Assembly: GCA_021731145.1 (NCBI GenBank)
Contig: JAKFXX010000006.1
Span: forward strand, 62,001 to 126,000
Direction: 5' to 3'
Length of the DNA: 64,000 nt
DNA from: Gammaproteobacteria bacterium
GTDB lineage: Bacteria > Pseudomonadota > Gammaproteobacteria > Ga0077554 > Ga007554
Below, piece by piece: positions 5,099 through 25,232 of the stretch (position 1 is the stretch's first letter; each line of letters starts with the position of its first letter). Under the pieces are notes generated by a model. The model made no database searches, was not told the origin of the DNA, and saw nothing but the letters and a program-made list of their open reading frames with translations. The translations under genes and the position numbers were made by a program.

Positions 5099-5181
5099 TA
5101 TCCCCACAGATGTGCTCAGGTGTTTTGGATGGGGTGGAGAGCCTGCCTCTGAATTAGGCGTCATGATTGGGGAGATATGAT

Positions 5182-6614: not shown

Positions 6615-6937
6615 TTGAGAATATATACGATTGTAGAAACCCCAACTTTTGCGGAAGATGCCAAAGATCTCTCTGGACAGAGGAGGAGCGAGGTGCGTTC
6701 TGTGCCTGGTTGTCCGCCCATCCAGAGGTAGGCAATGTCATTTCAGGTAGTGGCGGTTGCCGTAAAGTGCGCTGGAGCAGGCGAGGTAAAGGCAAGAGCG
6801 GCGGTGTCCATGTTATTTATTTCGCTCGACTTGCCAATGGTGAATTATGGCTATTGGTCATATACGCAAAGAGTGTGCGCGGAAACATCCCGCCTCACAT
6901 ACTGAAATCTATTCGGGAGACCATTGAAAATGAATAA
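6603..6937 (+). pseudogene. RelE/HigB-type toxin, frameshifted
   Basis: Two frames together make one toxin of about 110 residues: an N-terminal part (IYTIVETPTFAEDAKDL) and, shifted by two bases, WTEEERGAFCAWLSAHPEV and onwards. The C-terminal part includes RKVRWSRRGKGKSGG and IYFARLANGELWLLVIYAK, typical of RelE-fold mRNA interferases. The break lies in a CT-dinucleotide run at 6669-6674; removing one CT restores a single frame. The start is uncertain: ATG 6603 sits inside the operator palindrome, so TTG 6615 is also plausible. It may be a real lesion, a sequencing error or an unusual frameshift. The stop overlaps the antitoxin start by 8 bp. Confidence 0.75.
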
Positions 6938-7232
6938 GCGCAACGTAATGACAGGCGAAGAACTTGGCGAAAAGCTTCTGCAGTCGGTGCGTGAAATGAA
7001 GGCGGGCAAAGCGGCTCGCGCCACTCTAATTGCTCCTAATGAGGTGGCTGCCGCGCGCCTTAAAACGGGTCTTTCCCAGTCACAGTTTGCTCAAGCTCTG
7101 CATATTTCTGCACGCACACTGCAAGAGTGGGAGCAGGGGCGTCGCCAACCCTCTGGCGCAGCTCAAGCACTTATACAAATTGCCTTCAAGCACCCGGAAG
7201 TTATTGCAGAGTCATTAAGGCAGGTTGGCTAA
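6930..7232 (+). CDS. XRE-family antitoxin, NadS-like
   Basis: This is a DNA-binding antitoxin of about 100 residues. A helix-turn-helix is visible in the segment ARLKTGLSQSQFAQALHI, followed by SARTLQEWEQGRRQPSGAA, a pattern characteristic of NadS/HigA-like proteins. The ATG at 6930 overlaps the toxin stop (ATGAATAA), so translation is probably coupled. An upstream TTG at 6924 is less likely. The frame is intact while the partner toxin is disrupted, so the antitoxin may persist as an autoregulator or as protection against related toxins. Confidence 0.85.
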   Translation: MNKRNVMTGEELGEKLLQSVREMKAGKAARATLIAPNEVAAARLKTGLSQSQFAQALHISARTLQEWEQGRRQPSGAAQALIQIAFKHPEVIAESLRQVG

Positions 7233-7459: not shown

Positions 7460-8311
7460 ATGAGTCCATTGACGGATTTGCGTATGAAGCGTTGTGTGAT
7501 GGCACTTTCATTGGTGTTGTCCGGCGTGATAGTTGTGCCCCAGGTTCACGCGGCTCAGGACGGCGCGGGGACTGTGACAGGTGAAGAAGTCGTAAAAAAC
7601 TGTGATTTCAAAAACCCCGGCAATGATCAGCGCTCAAAGTTGGCGATTGTTCTCAAGGATAGCTCGGGAAGTGAAAGAAAAAATGTCTATCTCCGGTTAT
7701 GGAAGGATTACAAGGGGGCCGAGGGCGTCGCAGATAAAATGATCCTCTTCACGGAATATCCGCCGGATGCCCAGGGCGCGGCCTTTATGCGTTGGGCATT
7801 TACCCGTGAGGCGGACAAGAATGCTGATCAGTGGATTTATCTGCCGGCATTGAGAAAGATACGGCGGGTTTCAATCAGGGATCCGGGCGATAGCTTTTTG
7901 GGGTCGGATTTGACGTATGCCGATATCAGCGGCAGGGCATGGGATGAGGATGAGCACAAGCTGATCCGGATCGAACCCGCCAGCAATAACGAGTTTTATG
8001 TGGTGGAGAGTACACCAAAGGAAAAGAACCCGCTGTACAGCAAGCGACTATCCTGGTTCCTGAAGACGCCTAGTTGGGATGGTTGCATCAAGGCGCGAGT
8101 TGATTATTACGACAAAAGGGGCGATTTGCTGAAAAGGCAAAATTTGCGCTGGCAAAAAGTGGGGTCGGCATGGGTGTGGGATAAAGTGGTTGTTCAGAAT
8201 GTACAAACCCTGCACTCATCCCTGTTTGAGGTTACCAACGTGGAGATTAATGTTGGTCTGCAGGATAGCCTTTTTGCTGAAAGGACGTTGGAAAAAGGGT
8301 ATAGCAAGTAG
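7460..8311 (+). CDS. LolA-like outer-membrane lipoprotein-sorting family protein (first copy)
   Basis: This is a periplasmic protein of 283 residues with an N-terminal signal peptide (ending near HAAQ). The body contains the family pattern of aromatic beta strands: RLWKDYKGAEGVADKMILF, then QWIYLPALRKIRRVS and FLGSDLTYADI. This matches the LolA-like (outer membrane lipoprotein-sorting) family often encoded next to MMPL/RND transporters, where it is thought to carry a lipid-like ligand through the periplasm. The ATG has GGAG 6-7 bp upstream. A TTGACA at 7289 may belong to its promoter, but the -10 is weak. A paralogue lies at 21732-22571. The ligand is unknown. Confidence 0.8.
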   Translation: MSPLTDLRMKRCVMALSLVLSGVIVVPQVHAAQDGAGTVTGEEVVKNCDFKNPGNDQRSKLAIVLKDSSGSERKNVYLRLWKDYKGAEGVADKMILFTEYPPDAQGAAFMRWAFTREADKNADQWIYLPALRKIRRVSIRDPGDSFLGSDLTYADISGRAWDEDEHKLIRIEPASNNEFYVVESTPKEKNPLYSKRLSWFLKTPSWDGCIKARVDYYDKRGDLLKRQNLRWQKVGSAWVWDKVVVQNVQTLHSSLFEVTNVEINVGLQDSLFAERTLEKGYSK

Positions 8312-8589: not shown

Positions 8590-9021
8590 ATGCGCGAGAT
8601 GCCGATAACCCAAGCGCAGGCCATGCGAGACAAAGCTATGTCTGTTGCGATGAAGCGTAAGGAAGAATTTTTGGGGGCCAGGGTGCCGAAGGTGTTGCGT
8701 GATCGGGTGATACAAAGAGCGAGCGATCTGGGTGTGCCCGTTTCAATCCTGATACGCACGATTCTTGAAGAGGCATTTGCCGAGGGACAAGCTGCCGGGC
8801 GCAATGCTGCGGTGTCGAGCCCCAAAGCAGTGGTAAATACTGCACCTCAACCGGCCAGGTTTCCTTCAGTTTTGGGGTGGGGGGAGATCAAGTTGAATAG
8901 GCAAATGGATTGCTCTGGCTGCGGGCAGCGGCTTGCGCCGGGAATGTTGGTTACTTTGGGGTTGGGGTTGTCCGGCGAAGGTCATGTTATCCTGTGTGAT
9001 CAATGTAAGGATCGGGTTTGA
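8590..9021 (+). CDS. Ribbon-helix-helix protein with C-terminal zinc ribbon
   Basis: This is a 143-residue protein. Residues ~28-65 (FLGARVPKVLRDRVIQRASD, then LGVPVSILIRTILEEAF) fit a ribbon-helix-helix DNA-binding fold. The C-terminus has CSGC and CDQC pairs separated by about 25 residues, a likely zinc-binding ribbon. It is probably a transcriptional regulator. The long perfect palindrome immediately upstream suggests self-control. Its stop overlaps the start of the next barrel gene (TTGA), so the two are translated together. I know no named homologue. Confidence 0.65.
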   Translation: MREMPITQAQAMRDKAMSVAMKRKEEFLGARVPKVLRDRVIQRASDLGVPVSILIRTILEEAFAEGQAAGRNAAVSSPKAVVNTAPQPARFPSVLGWGEIKLNRQMDCSGCGQRLAPGMLVTLGLGLSGEGHVILCDQCKDRV

Positions 9022-10523
9022 AAACAAGAAAGATGCTGCGATGCGCTGCTGCCCTGCTGGCAGCGGCTTTGATGGGTAGCTATCAATCCGCGTTTGCCAA
9101 TGAGGCCAAAGAGCAAGGCACCGATTTTGGGGTGGCCGCTGGCGAGGGTGACGCCCAAAAGGAGAGGTCTTCCATTTGGTCCAAGCTGAGTGTGAGCGGT
9201 TATTTGAAGAATGAAACTGCGTTCCGAGTCCGTGAGCCAAGATCGATCACCAAGATACGGAACATCCTCTATGTGAACGCGCAATACCCTTTTACTTCAA
9301 ATGTTAAGTTTAACTATGCCGGCTGGGCTTATTATGATCTGGCCTATGATTTATTTGACTACCGCACGATTGCGGCCAGACCACAACGTGATTCTCAGCA
9401 ACCTCTGGTTTTTGTAGAAAATCTTGAACATGAGAAAGATTCCCCTGTGGCGGCGACCCGGGAGCTTTATTTTGATGTGTTCCTCAAAAATCTCGATATC
9501 CGTCTGGGTAAGCAGTATGTCGTATGGGGCGTGCTGGAAGGTGTCAGGATCGTAGATGAAGTTAACCCTGTCGACTTCAGAGAGCTGATCCTGCCTGATT
9601 TGCTGGATTATAGGATATCTCAGTGGACGCTGAAGATGGATCATTATCGCGGCGATACTACGTATCAATTTCTGCTGATACCCGACCTCCAATTTCACAA
9701 GTCGGCCCCGCGCGGTTCTGAATGGGAGCTTCTTCAGGAGATACGAGATAATTTTGGAACTGTATTAACCAAAAAACCTCAATCGTTCAAACTACAGAAT
9801 TCCAATGTAGGGCTCAAGGCGACTACCAATATTTTCAATACTGAGGTGTCGCTGAGTTATTTATATACATGGGATTTTTTCCCCACTGTTTTTCGTACAA
9901 TCAGGATGGATCAGCAGGAAGATCCGGTCTTGTACCCAACCTATAACAGAATAGCGATGTACGGTGGAACTGCGGTCAAGCAGATCGGTCCTTTTATCCT
10001 GAAGGGCGAGGCAGTCTATGTGACGGGCAAGTATTTTGGATTGAAAAATACGGTGGACAGGAATAATGACGGTTATCTTGATAATAATGGGGAATTGAAG
10101 CGGGATCATATTCGCTGGGGGATGGGGCTGGACTTCAATATAAAAGGCTTGGATCTGTCGCCTGGGGTTACCCAATGGATAATTTTGAATCATGACCCGG
10201 AATTGATTCAGGCGCGGAACGACAGTTCCTTCAACCTTTTTGGCAGAAAAGAGTTTCCTCAGCACTCCGCGACGGCTCAGTTTCTATGGATATATCTGAT
10301 CAACATGAAGGAGTCGTACCTGAAGCCCAAGGTTACCTTTCAGGTGACCGACAAGTTTCAAGTAGGCGCCGGAATGGATCTTTTTTGGGGTAAAAAGGGC
10401 TTCTTTGGTGATCCCGGCAGCGGTATTTCACCCATTGTTGCTGCCACACAGCAAAGGCCGCAATTTCTTGGTTATTTCCATAATAATGACCGCATTTTTA
10501 TGGATTTCAAGTATTCATTCTAA
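9018..10523 (+). CDS. Outer-membrane beta-barrel protein, DUF1302-like
   Basis: This is a 501-residue protein with a signal peptide (LLAAALMGSYQSAFA) and a long beta-rich body ending in an aromatic residue (MDFKYSF), as in outer-membrane barrels. The stretch LGKQYVVWGVLEGVRIVDEV followed by NPVDFRELILPDLLDYR resembles the conserved block of DUF1302 proteins. Those occur beside RND transporters and LolA-fold proteins in clusters thought to move hydrophobic compounds. The TTG start overlaps the upstream stop and has AAGGA 6 bp before it. ATG 9033 is the alternative. Family assignment is by motif resemblance only. Confidence 0.65.
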   Translation: MKTRKMLRCAAALLAAALMGSYQSAFANEAKEQGTDFGVAAGEGDAQKERSSIWSKLSVSGYLKNETAFRVREPRSITKIRNILYVNAQYPFTSNVKFNYAGWAYYDLAYDLFDYRTIAARPQRDSQQPLVFVENLEHEKDSPVAATRELYFDVFLKNLDIRLGKQYVVWGVLEGVRIVDEVNPVDFRELILPDLLDYRISQWTLKMDHYRGDTTYQFLLIPDLQFHKSAPRGSEWELLQEIRDNFGTVLTKKPQSFKLQNSNVGLKATTNIFNTEVSLSYLYTWDFFPTVFRTIRMDQQEDPVLYPTYNRIAMYGGTAVKQIGPFILKGEAVYVTGKYFGLKNTVDRNNDGYLDNNGELKRDHIRWGMGLDFNIKGLDLSPGVTQWIILNHDPELIQARNDSSFNLFGRKEFPQHSATAQFLWIYLINMKESYLKPKVTFQVTDKFQVGAGMDLFWGKKGFFGDPGSGISPIVAATQQRPQFLGYFHNNDRIFMDFKYSF

Positions 10524-10550: not shown

Positions 10551-10637
10551 CATAAAACCCATTCTTTGGGTTTTATGCCATGTGAAATCAGCGCAGGATA
10601 ACGTTCGCAGGCGGGTGGGTTTACTCCCTCCCGCCTG
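10551..10637. other. Two hairpins between the barrel and RND genes
   Basis: The first has CATAAAACCCA paired with its exact complement around TTCTT (10551-10577). The second has CAGGCGGGTGGG paired with CCCTCCCGCCTG around a 6-base loop (10608-10637, one mismatch). They sit in the 142-bp leader before the RND gene. They could act as terminators, attenuators or RNA-stability elements; no T-run follows either. Confidence 0.5.
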
Positions 10638-10665
10638 TCACTGTATAAAGGATGCCGCTACAGCC

Positions 10666-13143
10666 ATGCTGAACAAGTTATACGCCGCAGTTACGAAGTT
10701 CCCCAAGAGCGTGATGCTCGCCATCGCCGCGATCACGGTATTTTTCGCCTTTCAGTTGCCCAAGTTGCAGTGGGAGACGGATGCCCGTGTTTATCTCCCT
10801 AAGGGACATGCCGCGATTCTCTATGATGAAAGGGTTGATGAGGTATTCGGCGTCAAGGATGCCGTCATCATCGGTATTGTCAATGAAAAAGAGGGTATTT
10901 TTAACCCCAAGACGCTGGCACGTATTGCGCGTATTACGGAAAAAATTTCGGCGCTGCCGGGGGTGATTGCCAATCGGACGATAGATGTGGCCTCACTGTC
11001 CACCGCCACTGTGTTCACGGGGACGGAATCGGAGTTGAGCACGCAGCGGCTCATGGATACCGTACCCACCGACCAGGCGGGCATCGAGCGGCTCAAGAGC
11101 ATTGTTTACGGCAATAGCGACTTGTTTGTAGGTAATATTGTCTCCAAAGATGGCACGGGCGCCATGATCCGCGCCAAGCTCAAGGAGGGGATAGCCAACC
11201 GGTATCAGACCTATTGGCAGATTAAGGGGATACTCGCCGCAGAGCAGGGGGGCGGCGCATGGAGCGGTCAGGCGGGTGGCGGCAATTGGCAGCAGGGTAA
11301 ATGGCCGCAAGGCGGCGGGCAGGGCCAGTGGCCGCAACAGGATAAGCCTTCGGCAAAGAGCGATAAGGCCGTCGATAAAAATGCGGATGTGTTTTACATG
11401 GCGGGTCGGCCGGTTATTGAGGTCAGCTCGGGATTTTATGCCATGCAGGATATGAAGGTCATGATACCGCTGCTGATAGTGGCGATCATGGCTGTCCTCT
11501 TTCTTGTGTTTAAAACGTTGCGTGGCGTGGTGTTACCCTTGTTCATTATGGCGGCCGGTATTATCTGGACCATGGGGAGCATGGCGGTGCTGAATGTGCC
11601 GCTATATACCATTTCCACGATGTTGCCAGTGATTCTGGTGGCGGTGGCGATCGGCAATGCTGTTCATCTGTTGACCAATTATTACGATAATGTTTTAAGC
11701 GATCCTTACCGGGAAGGAAAGGTGATTGTTGGGCAGATGCTGGAGGAGCTCGGTCCGCCCTTGATCACGACGTCGCTTACGACGGCGATAGGGTTTCTTT
11801 CCCTGTGGTTTTCGGAAATGCCGCCTTTCAAGACCTTTGGTTTGTTCACAGTGCTTGGCATTGTGTATTGCTGGCTGTTGTCCGTGACCTTTCTCCCCGC
11901 CGCGCTGTGCCAATTGAAGCCGAAGGTCGGTGGCTATCTGGCGAAGCGGCGTGCGATGCGTATTCATTCGGAACAGGACTGGATTACCCGGGTGCTGGTG
12001 GGCTGGGGGGAGGTCATACTCAAAAATAAAAAAGGTGTGAGCCTTGCGTTGATTGTGATGACCGTGCTGGGCGTTTATGGCGCAACACTGCTGCGTGTGG
12101 ATTCAAGCTGGATGAGCGACTTCAAGAAGGATAGCGAGGTGGCGCTTTCCAATGACATGCTGAACAAAAAGTTCGACGGCACGATCTTCCTGAATGTGGT
12201 TGTCGAAGGAAAGCAAAAGGACGCACTCAAGTCGCTGGCGGTATTGAAGAAGATCGAGGCGCTCCAGGTCAAGGTTGAAAGCCTGCCTTATGTGGGTGAT
12301 TCGCTGTCTGTGGTTGATTATTTGAAGAGCATGAATAAAACGCTGCATGCGGATGCGCCTCAATACAACGTGCTGCCGGCCTCTGAAGCGGAAGTTGCCG
12401 AAGACCTCTTTTTGTTTTCCATCTCCGGCCAGCCCGAGCTGCTGAATGAGGTGATAGATTATGATTACCGGCAGGCCAACGTGACCTTTTTCATCAAGAC
12501 GGACCATACCGGTGATCTCAAGGTGATCATTGATGGGGTCAATGATTTTGTGAAAAAGGAAATGTCCGGTTTGGACGTTAAAGTTAATTTGGCGGGTTCT
12601 GCCAATAATTCCTATATTTGGGCCGAGCTGCTGATCAAGGGGCAGGGCATGGCGATTGTGTTGTCAAAGCTGGGTATATTCCTGCTTGCAGCGCTGTTGT
12701 TCCGGTCTTTTTCCATGGGGCTGGTGACCATTATTCCTGTAACACTTGCGACAGTGCTGATTGCGGGATGTGCTGGTTTCATGGGTATCCCCATTGACGT
12801 TTCGACGATGCTGGCGACGGGTGTAGCGATCGGCGTGGGTGTGGATTACGCAATACACTATATGTTCCGTTATCGCCGCGAGCGGCAAAAAGAAAATGAT
12901 CAGCGCATGGCTACGCTGGGTACGCTGCGCAGTGTCGGCAAGACCATCGTGTTTAATGCGATGATTGTTACGGTGGGATTTTTAGTGCTGTTCTTTTCCC
13001 AATTCCCTCCCAACCAGAAACTGGGGTATTTTGTCGCCGCATACATGGTGGTGAGCTGTCTGGCGGCATTGATGGCGCTGCCTGTGGTGTTTTCCTACTT
13101 CAAACCGCGCCTTGCTCAAGGAATGTCTCAAGGTGTTGCGTAG
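10666..13143 (+). CDS. RND-superfamily (MMPL-type) transporter with a Gly/Trp/Gln-rich periplasmic insert
   Basis: This is an inner-membrane exporter of 825 residues built as two halves, each with one leading and five clustered membrane helices (for example LPVILVAVAIGNAVHLLTNY and STMLATGVAIGVGVDYAIHY). This matches the HAE3/MMPL class rather than drug-efflux AcrB types. Such proteins move lipids or hydrophobic molecules using proton motive force. The ATG at 10666 is preferred because the protein then starts at the first helix; a GTG at 10582 would add 28 atypical residues. Residues ~193-227 form a low-complexity insert (GGGNWQQGKWPQGGGQ), unusual for the family and echoed in the nearby ABC ATPase. 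It is flanked by barrel genes and probably acts with them. Confidence 0.88.
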   Translation: MLNKLYAAVTKFPKSVMLAIAAITVFFAFQLPKLQWETDARVYLPKGHAAILYDERVDEVFGVKDAVIIGIVNEKEGIFNPKTLARIARITEKISALPGVIANRTIDVASLSTATVFTGTESELSTQRLMDTVPTDQAGIERLKSIVYGNSDLFVGNIVSKDGTGAMIRAKLKEGIANRYQTYWQIKGILAAEQGGGAWSGQAGGGNWQQGKWPQGGGQGQWPQQDKPSAKSDKAVDKNADVFYMAGRPVIEVSSGFYAMQDMKVMIPLLIVAIMAVLFLVFKTLRGVVLPLFIMAAGIIWTMGSMAVLNVPLYTISTMLPVILVAVAIGNAVHLLTNYYDNVLSDPYREGKVIVGQMLEELGPPLITTSLTTAIGFLSLWFSEMPPFKTFGLFTVLGIVYCWLLSVTFLPAALCQLKPKVGGYLAKRRAMRIHSEQDWITRVLVGWGEVILKNKKGVSLALIVMTVLGVYGATLLRVDSSWMSDFKKDSEVALSNDMLNKKFDGTIFLNVVVEGKQKDALKSLAVLKKIEALQVKVESLPYVGDSLSVVDYLKSMNKTLHADAPQYNVLPASEAEVAEDLFLFSISGQPELLNEVIDYDYRQANVTFFIKTDHTGDLKVIIDGVNDFVKKEMSGLDVKVNLAGSANNSYIWAELLIKGQGMAIVLSKLGIFLLAALLFRSFSMGLVTIIPVTLATVLIAGCAGFMGIPIDVSTMLATGVAIGVGVDYAIHYMFRYRRERQKENDQRMATLGTLRSVGKTIVFNAMIVTVGFLVLFFSQFPPNQKLGYFVAAYMVVSCLAALMALPVVFSYFKPRLAQGMSQGVA

Positions 13144-13147
13144 AGGC

Positions 13148-14089
13148 ATGATGCGCAGGGTTTTTCTGCTATTTATTTCATGCCTGGCAGGTATGTTGAC
13201 GTTTTTCGATGTTGCTTATGCCAAGGAGGATGAGTACCAATGGAGTTTTTCCCCCATCCTCGGGATTCACGCCCCTGGCCTTAGAGTGCTGAATGAAGGC
13301 GTGTTCAGAGCGCCGCTCACATATCAAGCCGATATACTTGTGCAAGATGCGCCCGTTAGAACTGAGGTTCGAGAGTTCAAAAACCCTTTGCCTGGCATTA
13401 ACTATGCTCCTCTGGCGGGCGTTGAGTTTCAATGGAAGCTGGATAAAAAAAATGCACTGCTGATTGGGGGAAGTACGTGGCAAGGCGCATCGGAATCGAC
13501 TGTCAATGGAAGGTTTCCTATCCAGGGATATGTGGATGATAAAGGAGACTTTCCGCAGGTTACAAACGATAGAAGGGCCACGCTTTCCTACAATGATTTT
13601 TTTCTGGGTTGGAAGCACAATGCGATAAGTGTGCCTGATAAATACAATCTGTATTTCCGGTTGTCACTGCACGAAATTTTTGATATCGGCTATAGAGAAG
13701 ACTGGGTATTTCTGTATCTGGACGGTCCTGCCGCAACATTCAAAAAGATCTTTGTCGTTGAATCGAAAGCTACGGGAGCGCTTATGTTGCAGCCGGGGGT
13801 TGGCGGGGAGGTTTTTTTGAAGAAGTGGTTGTCGCTTGGCTTTGAGGCAAATTATAGCTATGGCCTCAGGAAGTTTACATTTAGAAACAACAATCTCAAC
13901 AGCGATTTTTTGGCTACCGACGGCGTTGTTATGTATACCCCCGCTCGGCCCAACCCTGCGGTAAGCGGTGTTTCTGACCCCGAAGATGGCAACCTTGAGT
14001 ATCAGGCGCAAGATGGGTCGGGCTATAAAAAACTCAGACTCTCGCTTGATGGATGGAAGGCATTGTTCAAGATAAATATTTATTATTAG
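13148..14089 (+). CDS. Probable outer-membrane beta-barrel protein, unknown function
   Basis: This is about 313 residues with a signal peptide (RRVFLLFISCLAGMLTFFDV, cleavage near AYA). The body alternates aromatic and polar residues and ends in KINIYY, as in barrel proteins. It starts 4 bp after the RND stop; AGAGG favours the ATG at 13151 or 13148. I do not recognise a named family. The position directly behind the RND gene suggests an outer-membrane partner. A 107-bp dispersed repeat begins at its stop codon. Confidence 0.7.
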   Translation: MMRRVFLLFISCLAGMLTFFDVAYAKEDEYQWSFSPILGIHAPGLRVLNEGVFRAPLTYQADILVQDAPVRTEVREFKNPLPGINYAPLAGVEFQWKLDKKNALLIGGSTWQGASESTVNGRFPIQGYVDDKGDFPQVTNDRRATLSYNDFFLGWKHNAISVPDKYNLYFRLSLHEIFDIGYREDWVFLYLDGPAATFKKIFVVESKATGALMLQPGVGGEVFLKKWLSLGFEANYSYGLRKFTFRNNNLNSDFLATDGVVMYTPARPNPAVSGVSDPEDGNLEYQAQDGSGYKKLRLSLDGWKALFKINIYY

Positions 14090-14274: not shown

Positions 14275-17001
14275 GTGAAGAAAGGGCTGTTGCTGTTTTT
14301 TGTGTTTAATCTATCGTTGCTTCATGAGGCGAGTTTAGTCTTTGCTGCGGAGCAATCATCGATTCCTGACATTAAAAAACCGACTTCCGAATCGCCTGGG
14401 CTCGAGCAGGCTATAGCCCGCGGCAAGGCCCAGATGGATAAGGGTGATCTGGATGGCGCGTTGGTTAGTTTCAATTCTGCAATCAAGATTGCCCCCGAAA
14501 ATGCCGAGGCCGTTTATTACATCGGTGTTATTTACATGCGTAAAAATCAGCCGAACGAGGGTTTGGAATATATAAAGAAAAGTTCAATGCTTGCGCCCGG
14601 AAATTTGAAAGTGCGCGCATCACTTGCGCTTGTTTATGAGCAGTTGAACAGGTTCGATGAGTCTGTGAGGGAGTACAAATTCATCATATCCAAGTCACCA
14701 GCAACGGAGGAGGCCAGAAATGCAGAGAAAAGCCTTTATCTGATCCAGATCCGGCAATATGCGGAGGCTGGCAATGTCGATGAGGCTTTGGGCTTGGCGG
14801 CCGTGCTGCGTAGGGATTATTCCGGCGATCCGCGTGTTATGCATGCCGTGGGGCTGGCCTTTTTTAACTTTAATCGCCTGGATGATGCCGAGGGTGTGTT
14901 CAAGCAAGTGGCGCAGCTTGTGCCGGGTAGCGCAACGCCTCATTTCTATCTTGCCAGGGTTTATGAAAGAAGCGGTAAAATCCCGCTTGCTGTTGAGCAA
15001 TTAAAGCGTGCTATTACACTGGAGCCGGGAAGTGATATTGGGCGTAGGGCTACGGTCAGGTTGGGCCTTATAAAAGGCGTCCAGTTGCTTGAAAAGAAAG
15101 ATATCCAGGGAGGGTTAAAAGAGTTTCAGGGGGTCTTGGCCATTGATCCTAATGAACTGATGGCCCTTTTCAATATTGGAACGATTTACCGCGAGTTAAA
15201 ACAACCGGACGAAGCAGTGGCTACGTTCAAGAAATTGCTGGAGATTGAGCCGCGCCATCTGGAGGCGCGCTTACGGCTTGGCGTGATTTATATGGAGGCA
15301 AATAAATTCGTAGAGAGTTCCAGGGAGTTGGAGGCAGTGGTTTCCATGGGTGCCAACACGCCGTCTGGCCAGCAAGCTGCCGCCATTCTTCGCAATATGC
15401 AGCAGACTTTCGGTGAGAAACTGGCAGAGGCGCGTAAGCTGGCGGATGAGATGGAGGGATATAAAAAGGCGCTGGCAATCAATCCTGATGATTTGGCGGC
15501 GCATTTTAACCTGGGGGTGCTCTATGCAAAGCAGGCGATACGGGATGAGGCGCTCCGTGAATTTCAAGAAGTGGTGCGCATTAATCCCGATCATGCCAAG
15601 GCGCATTACTATATTGGCTTGATTCAGGATGATAAGGGGTTGTACGAAAAGGCGGTCGATGCCTATAACAAGGCCGTTACACTGGAAAAAGAGCCCACAG
15701 AGGCGGAGCGGATTAGAGATAAATTGCAACTTGCCGTGGCAAGAGATTTGTATGCGAAAGATAAGCTGGACCTTGCAAAAAAACATTTTGACGATCTTCT
15801 GCAGAAGAAGCCAAACGACATGGTTGCCTTGTTCTACACGGCATTGATTCAGTCAAGAAAAGGTGAGATGGGGGAGGCGGAACGGACCTATCAACAGATT
15901 ATTGGCCTGAGCCCTGATAATCTTGGCGCACGCGGTAACCTTGCATTGCTCTATGAAAATTCGAATCGTGAAGAAGATGCGCTCAAAGAATACAGATTTA
16001 TAGTGCAGAACGGCGGGGCAAGCCCGCTGGCGGTCACGGCTGAGAAAAAAATCCCGGGGCTCGAGCGCAGAATTAATGGATTTACCTATAACATGGGTTA
16101 TGGGTTGACTTATGACAATAATAGTAATTTGAGCAAAACAGCGCCATTTTATGAATATATATCAAATCTTTCTCTGAATACGACCTACCGCTATAAATTG
16201 AGCAGAAATCTTAGAGGTGGCTTGACGATTAACCCTGCGTACATGATTTATCATTATTCGCAGTCGGATTTTACAAGAATAGATATTGGCCCGTTTGTTA
16301 CTTGGGGACCCAGCAATAGAAACATGACGCTGGGTGGGACACGTAGCGATATCTCGGGTTTGCTCAATGAGCAAAGGGTAAGTATCGGGAACCATGTCTA
16401 TACTGATACTTTATGGCGTTTTGAAATGCCCTCTGTGCTGGGGAGATTGGCGGCGCCCGAGGAAAGAAAAAAGGCGCCTTCCTTGGTGAGGCTCAATTTG
16501 TCTTACAGGGATTTTTTGAGTCAGACCAGTAGTATATTTAATTCCGTGACGTACTCGGCAGGACTATCCTTCAATCAGGGCTTGGGGCTTGGGCGGTCTA
16601 TTTTGCTGAGCTATGATTATAGCCTTAACCGTAATACGCGGCCGGAGGGGCATGATTACGCCTACCAAGGCCACAGTGCCCTGCTGCGTTTTGAGAAGTC
16701 ACTTTCAGCAAGATTGTCTGCTAATGCAGCGTATAACCTCGCTTTTAACTTTTACACCAATCCCGACTCTACCAATTTACAGCAACGCCGAACCAATGTG
16801 TTTAATTCACTGTCCTTGGGTGTGAACTATGAAATCAACGATAAGCTGAGAGCCTTCGCCAGTTATTCATTTCAGAATAACAACTCGAATCTTCCTGTAG
16901 GGCTTATCCTGAGAGCGACGGATATCATAGGCGTGCAAAGCAGGGCCTTGGGAGATTACTCAAAATCCCTCCTTACTGTTGGGATGACCTTGTTTTTTTA
17001 G
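14275..17001 (+). CDS. Large TPR protein with C-terminal outer-membrane barrel
   Basis: This is 908 residues. A signal peptide is followed by about a dozen tetratricopeptide repeats (residues ~45-590, with typical LDGALVSFNSAIKIAPENAE and DEALREFQEVVRINPDHAKA units). From ~600 the sequence becomes beta-rich with aromatic-ended strands and finishes in LTVGMTLFF, a classic outer-membrane signature. The architecture resembles exopolysaccharide porins of the BcsC/PelB kind and Slam-type translocators, which place periplasmic TPRs before a barrel. It starts at GTG 14275. It lies in the envelope-transport neighbourhood and is convergent with an ABC exporter. The cargo is unknown. Confidence 0.82.
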   Translation: MKKGLLLFFVFNLSLLHEASLVFAAEQSSIPDIKKPTSESPGLEQAIARGKAQMDKGDLDGALVSFNSAIKIAPENAEAVYYIGVIYMRKNQPNEGLEYIKKSSMLAPGNLKVRASLALVYEQLNRFDESVREYKFIISKSPATEEARNAEKSLYLIQIRQYAEAGNVDEALGLAAVLRRDYSGDPRVMHAVGLAFFNFNRLDDAEGVFKQVAQLVPGSATPHFYLARVYERSGKIPLAVEQLKRAITLEPGSDIGRRATVRLGLIKGVQLLEKKDIQGGLKEFQGVLAIDPNELMALFNIGTIYRELKQPDEAVATFKKLLEIEPRHLEARLRLGVIYMEANKFVESSRELEAVVSMGANTPSGQQAAAILRNMQQTFGEKLAEARKLADEMEGYKKALAINPDDLAAHFNLGVLYAKQAIRDEALREFQEVVRINPDHAKAHYYIGLIQDDKGLYEKAVDAYNKAVTLEKEPTEAERIRDKLQLAVARDLYAKDKLDLAKKHFDDLLQKKPNDMVALFYTALIQSRKGEMGEAERTYQQIIGLSPDNLGARGNLALLYENSNREEDALKEYRFIVQNGGASPLAVTAEKKIPGLERRINGFTYNMGYGLTYDNNSNLSKTAPFYEYISNLSLNTTYRYKLSRNLRGGLTINPAYMIYHYSQSDFTRIDIGPFVTWGPSNRNMTLGGTRSDISGLLNEQRVSIGNHVYTDTLWRFEMPSVLGRLAAPEERKKAPSLVRLNLSYRDFLSQTSSIFNSVTYSAGLSFNQGLGLGRSILLSYDYSLNRNTRPEGHDYAYQGHSALLRFEKSLSARLSANAAYNLAFNFYTNPDSTNLQQRRTNVFNSLSLGVNYEINDKLRAFASYSFQNNNSNLPVGLILRATDIIGVQSRALGDYSKSLLTVGMTLFF

Positions 17002-17010
17002 CAGGCTCGC

Positions 17011-17772
17011 TCACTCCCGCAAAGAATTAAACGCGTTCACTGCCCAGGCTAGTGTGCCTCCCGCAAACACCAGCAGTACCAGCAGGCCCTTTGAATACAC
17101 GCCGAAGTCGGGTGTTCCTATCAACACAGCTCTTACTGCTTCCACTGCGTAATTGATGGGGTTGATGGCAGCAACATAGCCGATCCAGTCGGGCATGAAG
17201 TTTTCTGGCATGAGCGCGGTGGAGAAGAACATTAGCGGCAGGGTCATCAGGTTGCCTATCATGACCAGCGGTTCTTCGCGTTGCAGTAGGATGGCGAAGC
17301 CATTGGACAGCGCGGCGAACCCTACCCCCAGTAGAAAGATAATCAGCATGGCCATGCTGATATACAGTGGGTTGATGCTGGTGGCTGCGCCTATCGCAAG
17401 GGATACGGCGAGGATAATCAGTGTTTGGGCGAGCACCTGGACGGCCGAGTGCAGAACTCGGCTGAGGACAATGGCGGTGCGCGATACCGGTGCCACGAGC
17501 ATTTTGTCGATGGTGCCCGCTGTGATCTCTCTTAAAAGACTGACGCCAGACCATGACGACCCGAACAGGACGGTCATGATGAGTACGCCAGGGACAAAGA
17601 AATCGACATAGCTGTTGGCCGGAAAGCCGGGGAGCTGAGAGATGTTTTTGAAAAGTTGGCCGAATATCACCAGCCAGATCAACGGCTGGATAAGTGTAAA
17701 GAGCGACCACCAGGGCATTCTGATGGTGATCCGCATGTATTTACCAAACAAGTACCATGTATCCGTGAGCAC
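17011..17772 (-). CDS. ABC-2 type transporter permease
   Basis: This is an inner-membrane permease of about 253 residues with six hydrophobic segments and the ABC-2 signature region (SLLREITAGTIDKMLVAPVS, then NLMTLPLMFFSTALMP). It pairs with the ATPase encoded immediately upstream in the same direction. GTG 17772 with AGGA 8 bp before it is a better start than TTG 17823, which would add a histidine-rich, unlikely N-terminus. Family members export drugs, polysaccharides or lipids; the substrate here is unknown. Confidence 0.87.
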   Translation of the reverse strand: MLTDTWYLFGKYMRITIRMPWWSLFTLIQPLIWLVIFGQLFKNISQLPGFPANSYVDFFVPGVLIMTVLFGSSWSGVSLLREITAGTIDKMLVAPVSRTAIVLSRVLHSAVQVLAQTLIILAVSLAIGAATSINPLYISMAMLIIFLLGVGFAALSNGFAILLQREEPLVMIGNLMTLPLMFFSTALMPENFMPDWIGYVAAINPINYAVEAVRAVLIGTPDFGVYSKGLLVLLVFAGGTLAWAVNAFNSLRE

Positions 17773-17832
17773 GATGTTTATCCTGACTGTGTGATGGTGT
17801 AATGGATGTGGCGTAATAAACAAGGAGGGCTG

Positions 17833-19500
17833 TTAGCCTTTTTTGCCGGGGTCTTGGGTTTCCCCGGTTTTATTTGGCGGCGCGCCGTCCCATTGATTGC
17901 TGTTGTCAGCGGGCCATGGGGCCTGCCCCTTGTTGCGCCACCATTCCTCCATTTCTTCTTTGGTCCAGGTTTGTGCTGGATTCGTAGGTTGCACAGTGGG
18001 TGGTGTGGCTTCCTCACTGGCTGAAGGGGGGGGGGCGGGGGATCCCTGGGTGCCGCTGGATTGGTCCTGATTCTGCCACCATGCTTCCATTTCTTCCTTT
18101 GTCCAGGCTTGTGCCGGGTTCATGGGGCGCACCGCAGGTGGCGTGATTTTCTGGCGGGGTGGAGGGGTGTTTTCAGGGAATCCCTGTGTGCCACTGGATT
18201 GACCCTGGTTCTTCCACCATCCTTCCATCTCTTCCTTGGTCCATGCCTGTGCTGGATTCATGGGTTGCGCGGCGGCTTCCACGTTGCCTTGTCCGGCATT
18301 GCCCGGGACGCTATCGGAGGCTGTGCTGGATTGGCCCTTGTTTTTCCACCACTCAGCCATCTCTTCCTTGGTCCATGCTTGTGCTGGGGATGAAGGAGCC
18401 GTTTCCGATGTTTCGGTGTCTTTTTTCCAGTTGTCCGGGTTGGGGGTGGAGTTATCGTCGCTGGCGTCTTCCTGCCCGCCGCCCCATTTTTTCTGCCAGT
18501 TGCCGCCCCCGCCTTTGCCCGCCCACTGCATCCACCATTCTTGCCCGGTGTCCTCCTTGGTTTCTTCCAGGCTGCTGCCGGTGTATTTCAGGAATACATC
18601 GTCCAGTGTCGGGCGGGAGAGGGACAAAGTCTTGATGTGAACGCCCTGCTGTGACGCGACAAGGGCGATGTGCGGCACGCTTGCCGCGCCGTTTTCAACA
18701 TAAATGTGCAGTTTGTTGCCTTGCCACACGGTATCCTTGATTTCTGGCTGGTTTTTCAAGGTGTGGGCGAAAGCGCCGACTTGTGCGTCGTTCTGTTCGA
18801 AGGTCAACTGCACGGAATCGCCGTGGATGCCGGTTTTCAGTTCCTCCGGCGTGCCGGTGATGCGTATCTTGCCCGCATTGATAATGGCAACCTGATGGGA
18901 AAGTTTGTCCGCCTCTTCCAGGTAGTGGGTGGTCAATAAAATGGTGAGGCCTAATTCGCGGTTCAGTTTTTCAATATAGGCCCACAGGTTTTTGCGGCTC
19001 TTGATGTCCAGCCCTAGCGTCGGCTCATCAAGAAACACGACTTTGGGACGATGGATCAGTGCGGTGGCGATATCGAGCTTTCTGCGCATGCCGCCGGAAT
19101 AGGTGGCGACCAATTGGTCCAGGCTGTCCTTTAGATCAAAATAGGCCGCAAGCTCTTCGACCCGCGCCCGGATGTCGGCTTTTTTCATCCGGTAGAGATG
19201 GCCTTGCAGCACCAGGTTCTCGCGTCCGGTGAGGAAGTAGTCGATGCCGGTCTGCTGCGCGACGACGCCGATGGATTCGCGGACTTTTTCAGGGTCTTTG
19301 TCAACGTCATAACCTGCTACCTGTACGCTCCCGGTATCAAAGCCGGAGAGTGTTGAGCAGATGCGGATGGTAGTGGTTTTTCCCGCGCCATTCGGGCCGA
19401 GCAAGGCGAAGATCTCCCCTTGTTTTACGTGGAGATCCAGGCCATCCACGGCCTTGTTGCCGGAAGGGAATATCTTGGTTAAACCGCTAGCCTGTATCAT
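17833..19500 (-). CDS. ABC-2 transporter ATPase with a repeat-bearing Trp-rich C-terminal extension
   Basis: The first ~310 residues form an ordinary DrrA/NodI-type ATPase: Walker A GPNGAGKTTT, signature YSGGMRRKLD, Walker B VVFLDEPTLGLD, and the accessory domain ending near TLDDVFLKYTG. An extension of about 240 residues follows, which the family normally lacks. It starts with EEWWMQWAGKGGGGNWQKKW type sequence. It then carries four copies of P-A-Q-(A/T)-W-T-K-E-E-M-x-x-W-W-x-N-x-x-Q at residues 372-390, 416-434, 462-480 and 508-526. The linkers are Pro/Ser/Gln-rich. The extension should be cytoplasmic and is probably a binding or scaffolding tail. The permease gene follows. Confidence 0.88.
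   Translation of the reverse strand: MIQASGLTKIFPSGNKAVDGLDLHVKQGEIFALLGPNGAGKTTTIRICSTLSGFDTGSVQVAGYDVDKDPEKVRESIGVVAQQTGIDYFLTGRENLVLQGHLYRMKKADIRARVEELAAYFDLKDSLDQLVATYSGGMRRKLDIATALIHRPKVVFLDEPTLGLDIKSRKNLWAYIEKLNRELGLTILLTTHYLEEADKLSHQVAIINAGKIRITGTPEELKTGIHGDSVQLTFEQNDAQVGAFAHTLKNQPEIKDTVWQGNKLHIYVENGAASVPHIALVASQQGVHIKTLSLSRPTLDDVFLKYTGSSLEETKEDTGQEWWMQWAGKGGGGNWQKKWGGGQEDASDDNSTPNPDNWKKDTETSETAPSSPAQAWTKEEMAEWWKNKGQSSTASDSVPGNAGQGNVEAAAQPMNPAQAWTKEEMEGWWKNQGQSSGTQGFPENTPPPRQKITPPAVRPMNPAQAWTKEEMEAWWQNQDQSSGTQGSPAPPPSASEEATPPTVQPTNPAQTWTKEEMEEWWRNKGQAPWPADNSNQWDGAPPNKTGETQDPGKKG
17923..18387 (-). repeat. Four tandem coding repeats in the ABC ATPase tail
   Basis: There are four units of 132-138 bp, each holding a conserved 57-bp core that encodes the AQAWTKEEM..WW block, plus a more variable linker. 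The repeats stay in frame. Near-identical cores with diverged linkers suggest selection on the protein motif after duplication. Confidence 0.85.
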
Positions 19501-21731: not shown

Positions 21732-22571
21732 ATGAAGAACAGGACTGTTTTGACAGGATGCCTGGGCATTATTGTATTTCTCATCGCGTCTATCGCAGCT
21801 ACCGCCCACGCGGAAGAGCTTTCTGCCGATGTCATCATGAAGAAAACTTTCGAGGTTTATGGCGGGGATGATTCCCTGTCGAAAATCACTTTTATATTTC
21901 AGGAAAAAGGCGAACCTGAAAAAAAGCTGATCTACTCCATGGCGTGGAAAAAATTCAAGGGAGCAGGTGAGGTCGATACAAAAGTCATGATGTTTCGTGA
22001 CTTTCCTCCCGATGCCAAAGGCGTCTCTTATCTAGGTATTTTTTATAAGCCGGAATTCAATAAAAATGACGATGAGTGGCTATACCTGCCAGAGCTGCGC
22101 ATGGTTAGAAGGTTGAGTCATACCGGGCCGAAACATGCCAAGGAAGAGGAGTTTGCAAAGTCAGAGTTGAGGCAGTTCGATCTTGTGCCTAGGAATCCTG
22201 ATGATGACATGCACAAATTGTTGTCATCCGCAGCCATGGAAGGTGTTGATTGCCACGTCATAGAGAGCATTCCCAGGAAAGGCGGCGCGGAGGTTTATCC
22301 CTATGGAAAAGTTGTACGATGGGTATCCAAGGATAACTTCTTGCCGCTGCGAATTGACTATTATGATGAGTACAATAAATTACAAAAACAGCAATTCACC
22401 AAATGGAAAAAGATGAATGATGCCTGGGTGTGGGAGGAAGTGGTGGGAACGAATGTTCAAACGGGGAATAAAACCCTGTTGACTATCACCGACATCAAAT
22501 TGAATGTTGGACTCACTGATGAATCTTTTTCAAAGCGCGCGATGCAGTTGGGTATTGAAAACGTCAAATGA
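21732..22571 (+). CDS. LolA-like outer-membrane lipoprotein-sorting family protein (second copy)
   Basis: This is a 279-residue periplasmic protein with a signal peptide ending near AHAEE. It shares the pattern of the 7460-8311 product: MAWKKFKGAGEVDTKVMMF, EWLYLPELRMVRRLS and a C-terminal NVGLTDESFSKRAM that parallels NVGLQDSLFAERTL of the first copy. The two are paralogues by eye. It starts 14 bp after the iron-transporter stop. It is probably another periplasmic ligand carrier for an RND system; the ligand is unknown. Confidence 0.8.
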   Translation: MKNRTVLTGCLGIIVFLIASIAATAHAEELSADVIMKKTFEVYGGDDSLSKITFIFQEKGEPEKKLIYSMAWKKFKGAGEVDTKVMMFRDFPPDAKGVSYLGIFYKPEFNKNDDEWLYLPELRMVRRLSHTGPKHAKEEEFAKSELRQFDLVPRNPDDDMHKLLSSAAMEGVDCHVIESIPRKGGAEVYPYGKVVRWVSKDNFLPLRIDYYDEYNKLQKQQFTKWKKMNDAWVWEEVVGTNVQTGNKTLLTITDIKLNVGLTDESFSKRAMQLGIENVK

Positions 22572-22696: not shown

Positions 22697-23707
22697 TTAC
22701 AGCTTCCCTTCGCGCCGCATCAGTTCATCAATGGTGACGCCTATTTCGGGCACGCCACCAAAAAGGCTGCCCAGCTTGCGCTTGTTGGCATTTTCAAGCA
22801 CTAAATTGTAATCGCTGGCGGACAGTGGGATGTAACTTACCTGTTTGACGAGGCTGGCGGCATTCTTCAGATAGAACTCGACGAACTCCTTGACCTCAGG
22901 TTTCTGGATGGATTTCGCGTTGACGTAAATGAAGATCGGGCGCGATAGCGGTTGGTAACTGCCATTTATCACCGCGTTAGGGCTGGGCGTGACGGCGGGC
23001 TTGCTGTCCCGCACCGCGATGGGCACCGCCTTCAGCTTGCTGGCGTTTTCGGCGTAATAGGCATAGCCGAAGTAACCCAGTGCGTTCTTGTCGCGTATGA
23101 CGCCCTGGACCAGCACGTTGTCATCCTCGCTGGCGGTGTAATCGCCACGGCTGGATTTAGCCTTGCCAACGACGGCCTCAGTGAAATAATCGAAGGTGCC
23201 GGAGTCGGAGCCTGCACCGAACAAGCGGATGGGTGCGTCAGGCCAGGAGGGGTCGATCTGATTCCATTTGCTGACTTTACCTTGCGCACTGGGCTCCCAC
23301 ATTTTCTTGAGCTGGGCCACGGTCATGCTCTTTACCCAGCTATTTTCGGAGTTGACCACTACCGTAAGCGCGTCATAGGCTACGGGCAATTCCATGTATT
23401 GAATGCCGGCCGCTTTGCACGACTCCATTTCGCCAGCCAGGATCGGGCGCGAAGCATCCTGGATGTCGGTCTCGCCACGGCAGAATTTCTTGAATCCGCC
23501 GCCCGTGCCGGAGATGCCTACGGTAACGCGGACCGTGCCCTTCTTGGCCTTTTGAAATTCTTCGGCGACGGCTTCGGTGATAGGGAAAACGGTGCTGGAG
23601 CCGTCGGCCTTGATCGTGGGCACGGCCACAGCCGTCATTGACAAACTCGACAGGCCGCCCAGGATGGCGGTCATGACTATCGATTTCCTGATGGATTTAT
23701 TTAACAT
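22697..23707 (-). CDS. pstS: Phosphate-binding periplasmic protein
   Basis: This is the solute-binding component for high-affinity phosphate uptake, 336 residues with a signal peptide ([15 protein letters not shown]). Family motifs [30 protein letters not shown] and [12 protein letters not shown] (phosphate contacts) are clear. It follows the phosphate-selective porin gene by 34 bp in the same direction, and both are probably driven by the Pho box upstream of the porin. pstCAB are not in the window. Confidence 0.93.
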
Positions 23708-23741
23708 GCATGTTGCCTCGATGGTTTAGGGTAAGTTTGCC

Positions 23742-25232
23742 TTAAAAATCAAACTGAGCGCGTAGCGTGACGGCTTTTTCACTCTTGCTGGTGACGTCAT
23801 TGACGGTGATCGGCGTATCAAAGCCGGTCTGCACATAGTTCAACAGAAAGCGTGTATTGGGATTGACGATCCACTTGACGCCCGCGGTCCACGCGCCTGC
23901 CTTGTTGGTGTAGGCGGTTGTCGTTGTCGCAGAGGGGGTGGTGAGACGTCCGGTCCCGGCGGCGTTGGCAGCAGCAAAGTCGGAGGCATCATATTCGGCG
24001 AAGCGCAGCCCCACCTCCCAGGCGCCCCAGCCTTCGGCCAGCGATCCAGGCTGGAAGTTGGTGTTGGGACGGATGCGGCCAAACGCGCCGGCCTTGTAAT
24101 TGTCCGCATATTTTTCGCCGGTGATCAACCAATTGATCGAGGCATACCAGGCATTGATGTCGCGGTCAAAGTTGACGCCAGCCTTGCTATTGCCTTGATA
24201 GTTGGCCGTCATGTGTTCCGCCTGGAACTTGACTGGCCCACGTGCGATCGCGGCCTCGAAGCCATAGCGCGTGCGGTCAAAGTTCTCGCCATCGAAAGGC
24301 GCGGTACGGAAGAAACTGACGCCTCTGGCCTGAGAGCGGGCGCTCAATGCGCCGTCGCCCGGCGCCTGTTCGCCTTTGGATAACGCAATGCCTGCATGGT
24401 AAACGGCGTCTTTCTGTTTCAGGATCTCGGCGAAATTGGCGGTGATGCGGCCAAGCACATCCATCTTGTCCGCCTTGGCGTTGTTCTGCTTGGTCGTGGC
24501 GTCGATGTCCGAAAGCTCTGCCCGGTTGATGCCGCGCCCGTTCGATAGCGCCACGCCATAATTGACGCCCTTGGTGATCTCACCGAACGCCATCGCGCCG
24601 ATTTCCTTGCCAGGCATCAGTTGATTGGCGAGGGAGCGCTCCTGAAAGTCAATAAAATTGGAGCTGGTCAGTTCCTCAAGTCCCATCGGCATTTTAAACT
24701 GCCCAAAACGCAACCCAAGTTTCGGCCACCACAGGGCGTCCAGGTGGGCGATGTCGAGCGCCGCACCACCTGCCCCGAATTCGCCTATCACCTGCACCTC
24801 GTAGCGGTCATAGAATTTTGCCTTGGCGCCGATGCGGCCGCGGCGTATCTCGAAGGTGTCGGCTATCATGCCGTCATTTTCCAGATAATTGCGATAATCG
24901 GCATGCACGCGGCCAGTGAGCGCGATGCTGAAATCCTTGCTGGCGGATTCGATGGCAATGCCATCCTTGAAGGCTGGCTTCAACTCGCCGCGCTTGGCTT
25001 CTGCTTCGCTTTGCTTGATTTCCCGAAGGGTATCCTTGATCTGACCATACTCTTCATTGCTCAACACACCTTTTTCCTTCAAGGTCTTTATTAAATCGGA
25101 AACGGCCTCATTTGCGTGTGCCGGTGCCTGCATTGCAGCGCACAGCAGGCCTATTGACAACGCCATGCCTGCGCGGTGCCTGGATGGACTGTTACGCCGC
25201 TCTTTTTTACGTGACATTTTTGTTACGTTCAC
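23742..25232 (-). CDS. Phosphate-selective porin, OprO/OprP family
   Basis: This is an outer-membrane trimeric porin that passes phosphate or polyphosphate. It has 496 residues with a signal peptide, an N-terminal coiled-coil-like segment (LIKTLKEKGVLSNEEYGQIK), then a barrel with FEIRRGRIGAKAKFYDRYEV and GQFKMPMGLEELTSS, typical of the family, ending in LRAQFDF. The GTG start has GGAGG 10 bp upstream. Together with pstS and the Pho box it forms a phosphate-starvation operon. Confidence 0.92.
   Translation of the reverse strand: MNVTKMSRKKERRNSPSRHRAGMALSIGLLCAAMQAPAHANEAVSDLIKTLKEKGVLSNEEYGQIKDTLREIKQSEAEAKRGELKPAFKDGIAIESASKDFSIALTGRVHADYRNYLENDGMIADTFEIRRGRIGAKAKFYDRYEVQVIGEFGAGGAALDIAHLDALWWPKLGLRFGQFKMPMGLEELTSSNFIDFQERSLANQLMPGKEIGAMAFGEITKGVNYGVALSNGRGINRAELSDIDATTKQNNAKADKMDVLGRITANFAEILKQKDAVYHAGIALSKGEQAPGDGALSARSQARGVSFFRTAPFDGENFDRTRYGFEAAIARGPVKFQAEHMTANYQGNSKAGVNFDRDINAWYASINWLITGEKYADNYKAGAFGRIRPNTNFQPGSLAEGWGAWEVGLRFAEYDASDFAAANAAGTGRLTTPSATTTTAYTNKAGAWTAGVKWIVNPNTRFLLNYVQTGFDTPITVNDVTSKSEKAVTLRAQFDF

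Follow-up and report, generated by a model that had tools for sequence, protein, structure and literature searches.

In the stretch of gammaproteobacterial DNA analysed here (64,000 nucleotides, referred to as the window), a DrrA-type ABC ATPase and an MmpL/RND transporter each carry a tryptophan-rich tract that is predicted to be disordered, and the two proteins are inherited as a pair. The ATPase tail would lie in the cytoplasm and the MmpL insert in the periplasm. Our leading reading, to which we give a probability of roughly 0.4, is that the two tracts are multivalent arrays of Trp, one on either face of the inner membrane, and that both hold a single exported compound, an amphiphile or glycolipid. 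The tail had been described in an earlier note on this DNA as a feature of the window protein; its homologues show that it is not unique to that protein, which corrects the earlier note.

A DrrA-type ATPase with a long tryptophan-rich tail

The ATPase gene (17833-19500, minus strand) encodes 555 amino acids with matches to TIGR01188 and to the Pfam families ABC_tran and DrrA1-3_C. The TIGR01188 score of 329.5 bits exceeds the curated cut-off of 312.45, which places the protein in the DrrA type, and the DrrA C-terminal domain (PF13732) was recognised at residues 216-307 with 36.7 bits against a cut-off of 27.4. The nucleotide-binding domain and the DrrA C-terminal domain make up the ordered part of the protein (residues 1-311; 18568-19500, minus strand). 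AlphaFold2, run on an alignment of 36 rows, predicted residues 1-310 confidently, with pLDDT mostly above 90. A fold search with the ordered part returned 4yer as the best PDB match, and the lipid transporters ABCA7 and ABCA4 also matched. A DrrA-type chain is expected to stop soon past the ...LDDVFLxYTG motif; 247 residues follow this motif in the window ATPase, compared with 8-26 in 30 tail-less relatives. We took the surplus as an extension and kept the DrrA-type assignment. The closest tail-less DrrA relatives found were mostly archaeal.

The tail comprises residues 312-555, and its 244 residues agree with the earlier estimate of about 240 residues following a standard ATPase. It contains 20 Trp, one Phe and no Tyr, and the last 244 of 555 residues hold 20 of the 22 Trp of the whole ATPase (hypergeometric p = 4e-6). 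Four units of the form AQ[AT]WTKEEMxxWW follow one another at spacings of 44, 46 and 46 residues, just as the earlier note had described four Trp-Trp repeats with a period of 44-46 residues; the span it gave for them, 17923-18387, was accurate to within 6 bases. In the extended form PAQ[AT]WTKEEMxxWWxNxxQ, the units begin at residues 372, 416, 462 and 508. Each is encoded by 21 codons on the minus strand: unit 1, PAQAWTKEEMAEWWKNKGQSS (18325-18387, predicted helix at residues 378-387); unit 2, PAQAWTKEEMEGWWKNQGQSS (18193-18255, predicted helix 422-432); unit 3, PAQAWTKEEMEAWWQNQDQSS (18055-18117, predicted helix 468-479); and unit 4, PAQTWTKEEMEEWWRNKGQAP (17917-17979, predicted helix 514-523).

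Most of the tail received pLDDT values below 50 in the AlphaFold2 model, with short helices exactly at the four units and two more in a conserved core that precedes them. We take the WTKEEM unit to be a textbook helix start, with Trp at N', Thr or Ser at the N-cap, Glu at N3 and Met at N4, presumably forming a capping box together with a hydrophobic staple.

A profile of the unit, run against the 2.9 Mb genome to which the window belongs, found only the four places in the tail (next best E = 1.1), and the unit was found in no PDB sequences, plasmids or phages. Wide occurrence in unrelated proteins, named beforehand as a reason to dismiss the repeat, was thus not seen in these sets. The earlier note had remarked that such repeats are not known in ABC-2 ATPases, and the open-licence literature likewise yielded no report of a tail of this kind on an ABC ATPase.

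Two other origins for the repeated pattern were considered and set aside. Recent tandem duplication of the DNA was ruled out because TRF found no tandem array at the tail and because the differences between copies are mostly synonymous (per pair of units, 4-7 synonymous changes and 3-7 amino-acid changes in 21 codons). Control of translation by Trp codons was rejected because the flanking Lys, Glu and Met residues are also kept and the MmpL tract lies in the middle of its protein.

A conserved core and selection on the repeat motifs

The core, EWWMQWAGKGGGGNWQKKW, occupies residues 321-339 (18484-18540, minus strand) and has the consensus EWWxQWAGKGGGxWxKxW. Its five Trp residues are invariant in 36 of 36 aligned homologues, its amino-acid identity within the genus is 100%, and it is better conserved than the repeats. 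The earlier description of the Trp pattern was right about the four repeats and missed this more conserved element before them. Conservation this strong points to one or more specific contacts, which might be with the membrane surface or with the transporter.

Three species of the genus carry 3, 3 and 4 units, and sister genera of the same family carry one, either WSPEEMEAWW or WSKEEMEAWW. In the genus comparison, identity over the 10 residues of the motif is 97-100%, with 0-1 amino-acid changes against 6-7 synonymous ones, while the linkers are 72-83% identical and show many replacements and gaps. Selection acts on short motifs within freely drifting linkers, and the fact that the motif codons are under purifying selection speaks for translation of the tail.

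Distribution of the tail and replacement of its repeats

Among 369 sampled genomes of the class, representing 272 genera, a profile of the core matched 24 genomes from 19 genera, at a single place in each and with no second match. An orthologue of the DrrB-like permease (at least 61% identity) was present in exactly these 24 genomes; the next permease match has 37% identity, and the ATPase adjacent to it lacks such a tail. Because the genomes with the core and those with the permease orthologue coincide, the tail is a constitutive, fixed part of one transporter, which is scattered across gammaproteobacterial families.

The types of repeat were surveyed in 42 tails on named contigs, mostly from uncultured Gammaproteobacteria. 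Lineage-specific repeats follow the core: WTxEEMxxWW; W[ST]xEExxxWQ, in many copies in L059; WQKWQ types; WQGNEWVDxDGxPKxDW, with six copies in L053; and WQNNEWNKxKDSPPDDWKKWASKAGYDV in L047. In these sequences the core is kept across lineages while different Trp repeats have been amplified in each, with Trp and polar spacers retained. Past the first WW, the pooled tails contain 10.5% Trp, 0.2% Phe plus Tyr, 1.9% Ile plus Leu plus Val, and no Cys. Compared with shuffled expectations, W[ST]xxE[MAT] was observed 34 times against 0.8 and WxGNxW 20 times against 0.3, whereas WW pairs were rarer (14 against 31). The W[ST]..E[MAT] pattern is present in 12 of the 42 tails.

The transporter was also seen on a Nitrospirae contig (L057, 9026-10375), where the tail has only one unit, WTEAEMKEWW, and its core is weaker; the permease is present as well, with DUF1329 and DUF1302 genes nearby. 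This suggests that the unit may be old, or that it was transferred. No MmpL orthologue was found at E 1e-60 in the 1.9 Mb incomplete genome of L057, so the pairing of tail and MmpL described below was seen in Gammaproteobacteria only.

A link to sulfur oxidation through dissimilatory sulfite reductase was also considered and rejected, because DsrA scored over its curated cut-off in none of the 24 tail-positive genomes. It did so in 16 of 44 hand-picked tail-negative genomes, and its absence from the tail-positive ones may reflect phylogeny or lifestyle.

The MmpL partner and its tryptophan-rich loop

The MmpL/RND transporter gene (HAE3-like; 10582-13143, plus strand) is co-inherited with the Trp-tailed ATPase. 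Its product belongs to the Pfam family MMPL (PF03176; 125.8 bits against a gathering cut-off of 20.5), and its fold matches MmpL5, MmpL4 and MmpL3. The HAE3 model TIGR00921 was the best NCBIfam match, although its score of 231.2 bits lies below the cut-off of 351.9; the curated HpnN and BstA models scored 93.9 against 751.85 and 22.4 against 1400. Translation of this gene probably starts at the ATG at 10666 and not at the GTG at 10582, because pLDDT stays below 50 over the first 23 residues and matches to orthologues begin near residue 28.

Residues 224-265 (11251-11376, plus strand) form a Trp/Gly-rich disordered insert that begins GGAWSGQAGGGNWQQGKWPQGGGQGQWPQQ. In the AlphaFold2 model, pLDDT falls below 50 at exactly these residues in an otherwise ordered RND fold. 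By the topology rules of the RND family, the insert would lie just before TM2, in the first periplasmic domain or loop.

Of the 24 tail-positive genomes, 23 have an MmpL orthologue (at least 49% identity). None was found in the 345 others among the 369 genomes of the class; those 345 hold only paralogues of 25-34% identity or nothing above threshold. The one tail-positive genome that lacks it (G310) is 91% complete and in 180 contigs. Fisher's test gives p = 1e-35 for this co-occurrence with relatedness ignored, and the positive genomes span about ten families. All 23 orthologues have a loop of 44-149 residues with 3-11 Trp, compared with 9-11 residues and no Trp at the loop position in the seven paralogues checked. 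The MmpL gene is off its usual place in L053/L121 and L058/L140, where a Trp-loop orthologue lies elsewhere; because L053 and L058 keep a Trp-loop MmpL outside the cluster, co-inheritance is independent of adjacency.

The two tracts are alike in composition. Trp makes up 10.5% of the tails and 7.7% of the loops, both are polar with Gly, Ala and Pro and contain no Cys, and hydrophobic residues other than Trp are few in either. Units of the tail type recur in MmpL loops, as EWTEEQMKWW (L144), WTKEEQAQW (L052) and WSPEQQAQW (L140), and the loop of L062 has three WEGNxW repeats that resemble the WQGNEW repeats in the tails of L039, L053 and L058. No other proteins around the cluster carry Trp tracts, and a profile of the MmpL loop matched only the MmpL gene in its own genome. 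Across 31 genomes, neither the lengths nor the Trp numbers of tail and loop are correlated (Spearman -0.24 and 0.01).

In RND proteins an Asp in TM4 takes part in the proton relay; at this position (MmpL residue 359, 11656-11658) the window protein and four family relatives have Asn. The Asp is kept in the other 18 aligned orthologues, and the TM10 Asp (residue 755) is present in 23 of 23. MmpL7 reportedly lacks the relay as well (PMC11539658).

The surrounding gene cluster

The DrrB-like ABC-2 permease of the same transporter (17011-17823, minus strand; Pfam ABC2_membrane, 1.6e-29) is encoded 10 bases downstream of the ATPase gene, and a TsaD gene adjoins this end of the cluster. A LolA-like/DUF1329 protein, a candidate periplasmic carrier (7460-8311, plus strand; PF17131, 1.9e-42), and a DUF1302 outer-membrane protein (9018-10523, plus strand; PF06980) are conserved in the cluster, and a second LolA-like protein (21732-22571, plus strand; PF17131, 1.8e-40) is conserved near it in the same bacterial family. 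A conserved protein with a signal-peptide-like start (13112-14089, plus strand) is likely located in the outer membrane and has no family match in Pfam or NCBIfam. The TPR protein (14275-17001, plus strand; matches to TPR families), also conserved in the cluster, has a C-terminal region whose sequence resembles a beta-barrel.

Several other genes lie beside these. A 305 aa protein with a signal-peptide-like start (5167-6084) matched nothing in Pfam or NCBIfam; in L053 and L058 the cluster is flanked by distant homologues (29-31%), and the protein is possibly a further component or a cargo. A pair of small ORFs at 6710-7232 resembles a RelE/HigB-type toxin with a helix-turn-helix antitoxin. A PstS-like phosphate-binding protein and an OprP/OprO-like porin (22697-25232) adjoin the cluster, also in relatives of the genus.

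Proposed function and alternative explanations

In the proposed mechanism, the DrrA/DrrB-type ABC transporter, the MmpL/RND protein, the LolA-like carriers and the outer-membrane proteins would together make up a single export route. Its product would be amphiphilic, most likely a lipid or glycolipid. The cytoplasmic ATPase tail and the periplasmic MmpL insert would serve as flexible arrays of Trp on polar spacers; the contact of any one Trp or Trp pair would be weak, but many together would hold the cargo, or its head group, near the transporter on each side of the inner membrane. The cargo would be loaded by the ABC transporter and then handed to MmpL and the carriers; in the genus of the window, the units would act as short self-capped helices presenting a WW pair. 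We infer the export direction, the lipid-like cargo, the contact between Trp and cargo, and the role of the cargo as the obvious common ligand of both tracts. The tail and the loop are unlikely to bind each other, because they are on opposite faces of the membrane. A linked cluster whose members use Trp for unrelated purposes would show co-inheritance too; the tracts, however, keep their Trp, belong to two transporters on opposite faces and are inherited as a pair, and this is explained most simply by a ligand common to both. Precedents for cargo contacts of this sort come from DrrA, Wzt and BstA, described below. Against cargo holding stand the missing correlation between tail and loop in length or Trp number and the strong conservation of the core.

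The strongest rival to cargo holding is that the Trp residues are self-associating stickers, so that tails cluster inside the membrane and MmpL loops outside to build an export patch. The Trp-only, polar, Gln/Asn-rich tracts resemble the NANOG tryptophan-repeat domain (PMC9106587), Rv1747 with its disordered cytoplasmic linker makes nanoclusters (PMC9312465), and the number and type of the repeats vary with Trp kept. However, the tails are rich in charged residues and depleted in WW pairs, as the comparison with shuffled tails indicates, and clustering on opposite faces needs two separate events, which explains the constant pairing less simply than a shared ligand does; we regard self-association as a serious but rather improbable explanation. 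The earlier note had likened the repeats to multivalent docking sites, and its proposal is supported by the predicted short helices within disorder, by the near-identity of the WTKEEMxxWW units (97-100%) in a genus whose linkers drift and by the similar WTEAEMKEWW unit of the Nitrospirae homologue. What is not supported is a sequence-specific receptor in the cytoplasm, such as a cargo-making enzyme: units are swapped, most lineages lack the WTKEEM unit and carry other Trp repeats, a like tract is periplasmic in the partner MmpL where a cytoplasmic receptor cannot explain it, and no candidate receptor came to light. Docking to one specific protein is less likely than a shared cargo, and on the whole unlikely.

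The Trp/Lys/Gly make-up of the core, with its five invariant Trp, is that of interfacial peptides, and the tail might then anchor the ATPase to the membrane surface, with Trp and Lys seated among the lipid head groups. The permease already holds the ATPase there, the repeats beyond the core are Glu-rich and near neutral, and an anchor does not need linkers of tens of residues; we consider this quite improbable. Least probable by far is that the tail is low-complexity sequence without function, growing and shrinking through slippage. This would account for the variable repeat number (three or four units within the genus, a single one in sister genera), but the pattern of selection largely refutes it: nearly all changes in the motif codons are synonymous although the linkers beside them vary freely, the core Trp do not vary in 36 homologues, and all 24 class genomes with the transporter have the tail.

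Cargo holding by the two Trp tracts remains our preferred reading. A little more tentatively still, the tracts may be flexible cargo-holding brushes in which the presentation of indoles, and not the peptide sequence, is selected, which would be a new principle for coupling ABC and RND transporters. The two partners share one unusual feature that is easy to mutate and is co-inherited across many bacterial families. The natural designs of the Trp array (helical, WQGNEW-type and short) appear interchangeable, which is useful for understanding disordered Trp-rich sequence in bacteria.

Comparison with known systems

Wzt of the Wzt/Wzm O-antigen transporter grips its cargo via an extra C-terminal domain (PMC9445017), and the window ATPase likewise continues beyond its nucleotide-binding domain into an additional C-terminal region. 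In Wzt, however, this part is a folded carbohydrate-binding domain, whereas the window tail is predicted to be disordered, with no Pfam domain match and pLDDT mostly below 50; the ATPase is thus not of the Wzt type. Rv1747 is an ABC transporter whose disordered cytoplasmic linker is associated with nanoclusters; its FHA domains are joined by a linker regulated by phosphorylation (PMC9312465), while the window ATPase has no FHA domain and its tail is based on Trp. The human NANOG tryptophan-repeat domain, in which eight Trp drive oligomerisation that is abolished by W8A, is similarly a disordered tract with Trp on polar residues (PMC9106587). NANOG is a eukaryotic transcription factor, and we do not claim homology between it and the window tail.

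The BstABC and HpnN systems, for sterols and hopanoids, also combine an RND protein with a periplasmic carrier and serve polycyclic lipids, and the periplasmic domains of BstA bind sterols (PMC10942540). The window RND protein differs from them in scoring far below the curated BstA and HpnN models. In AmeABCD, which has an HAE3-type RND protein, DUF1302, DUF1329/LolA-like and RND genes occur together as they do in the window, but the description of that system includes neither an ABC transporter nor a TPR outer-membrane protein (PMC6394551), and the window RND protein scores below the HAE3 cut-off.

In mycobacterial PDIM export (DrrABC-MmpL7-LppX), deletion of drrA, drrB or drrC abolishes export, the C-terminal domain of DrrA is needed and has been proposed to bind the substrate, and the TM1-2 and TM7-8 loops of MmpL7 matter (PMC11539658). 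The DrrA of that system is only 331 residues long, and its flexible tail is short (S306-R331; PMC11539658), in contrast to the 244-residue Trp tail of the window ATPase. The window system belongs to another phylum with a different envelope, and its cluster adds DUF1302, TPR and another likely outer-membrane protein. In PDIM export an ABC transporter of the DrrA type, an MmpL protein and a lipid carrier serve one product; genes for the corresponding three components, the candidate carrier being assigned by its Pfam LolA-like family, are co-inherited in the window system. How ABC and MmpL transporters share one lipid, a question that mycobacterial PDIM poses too, becomes testable in this family.
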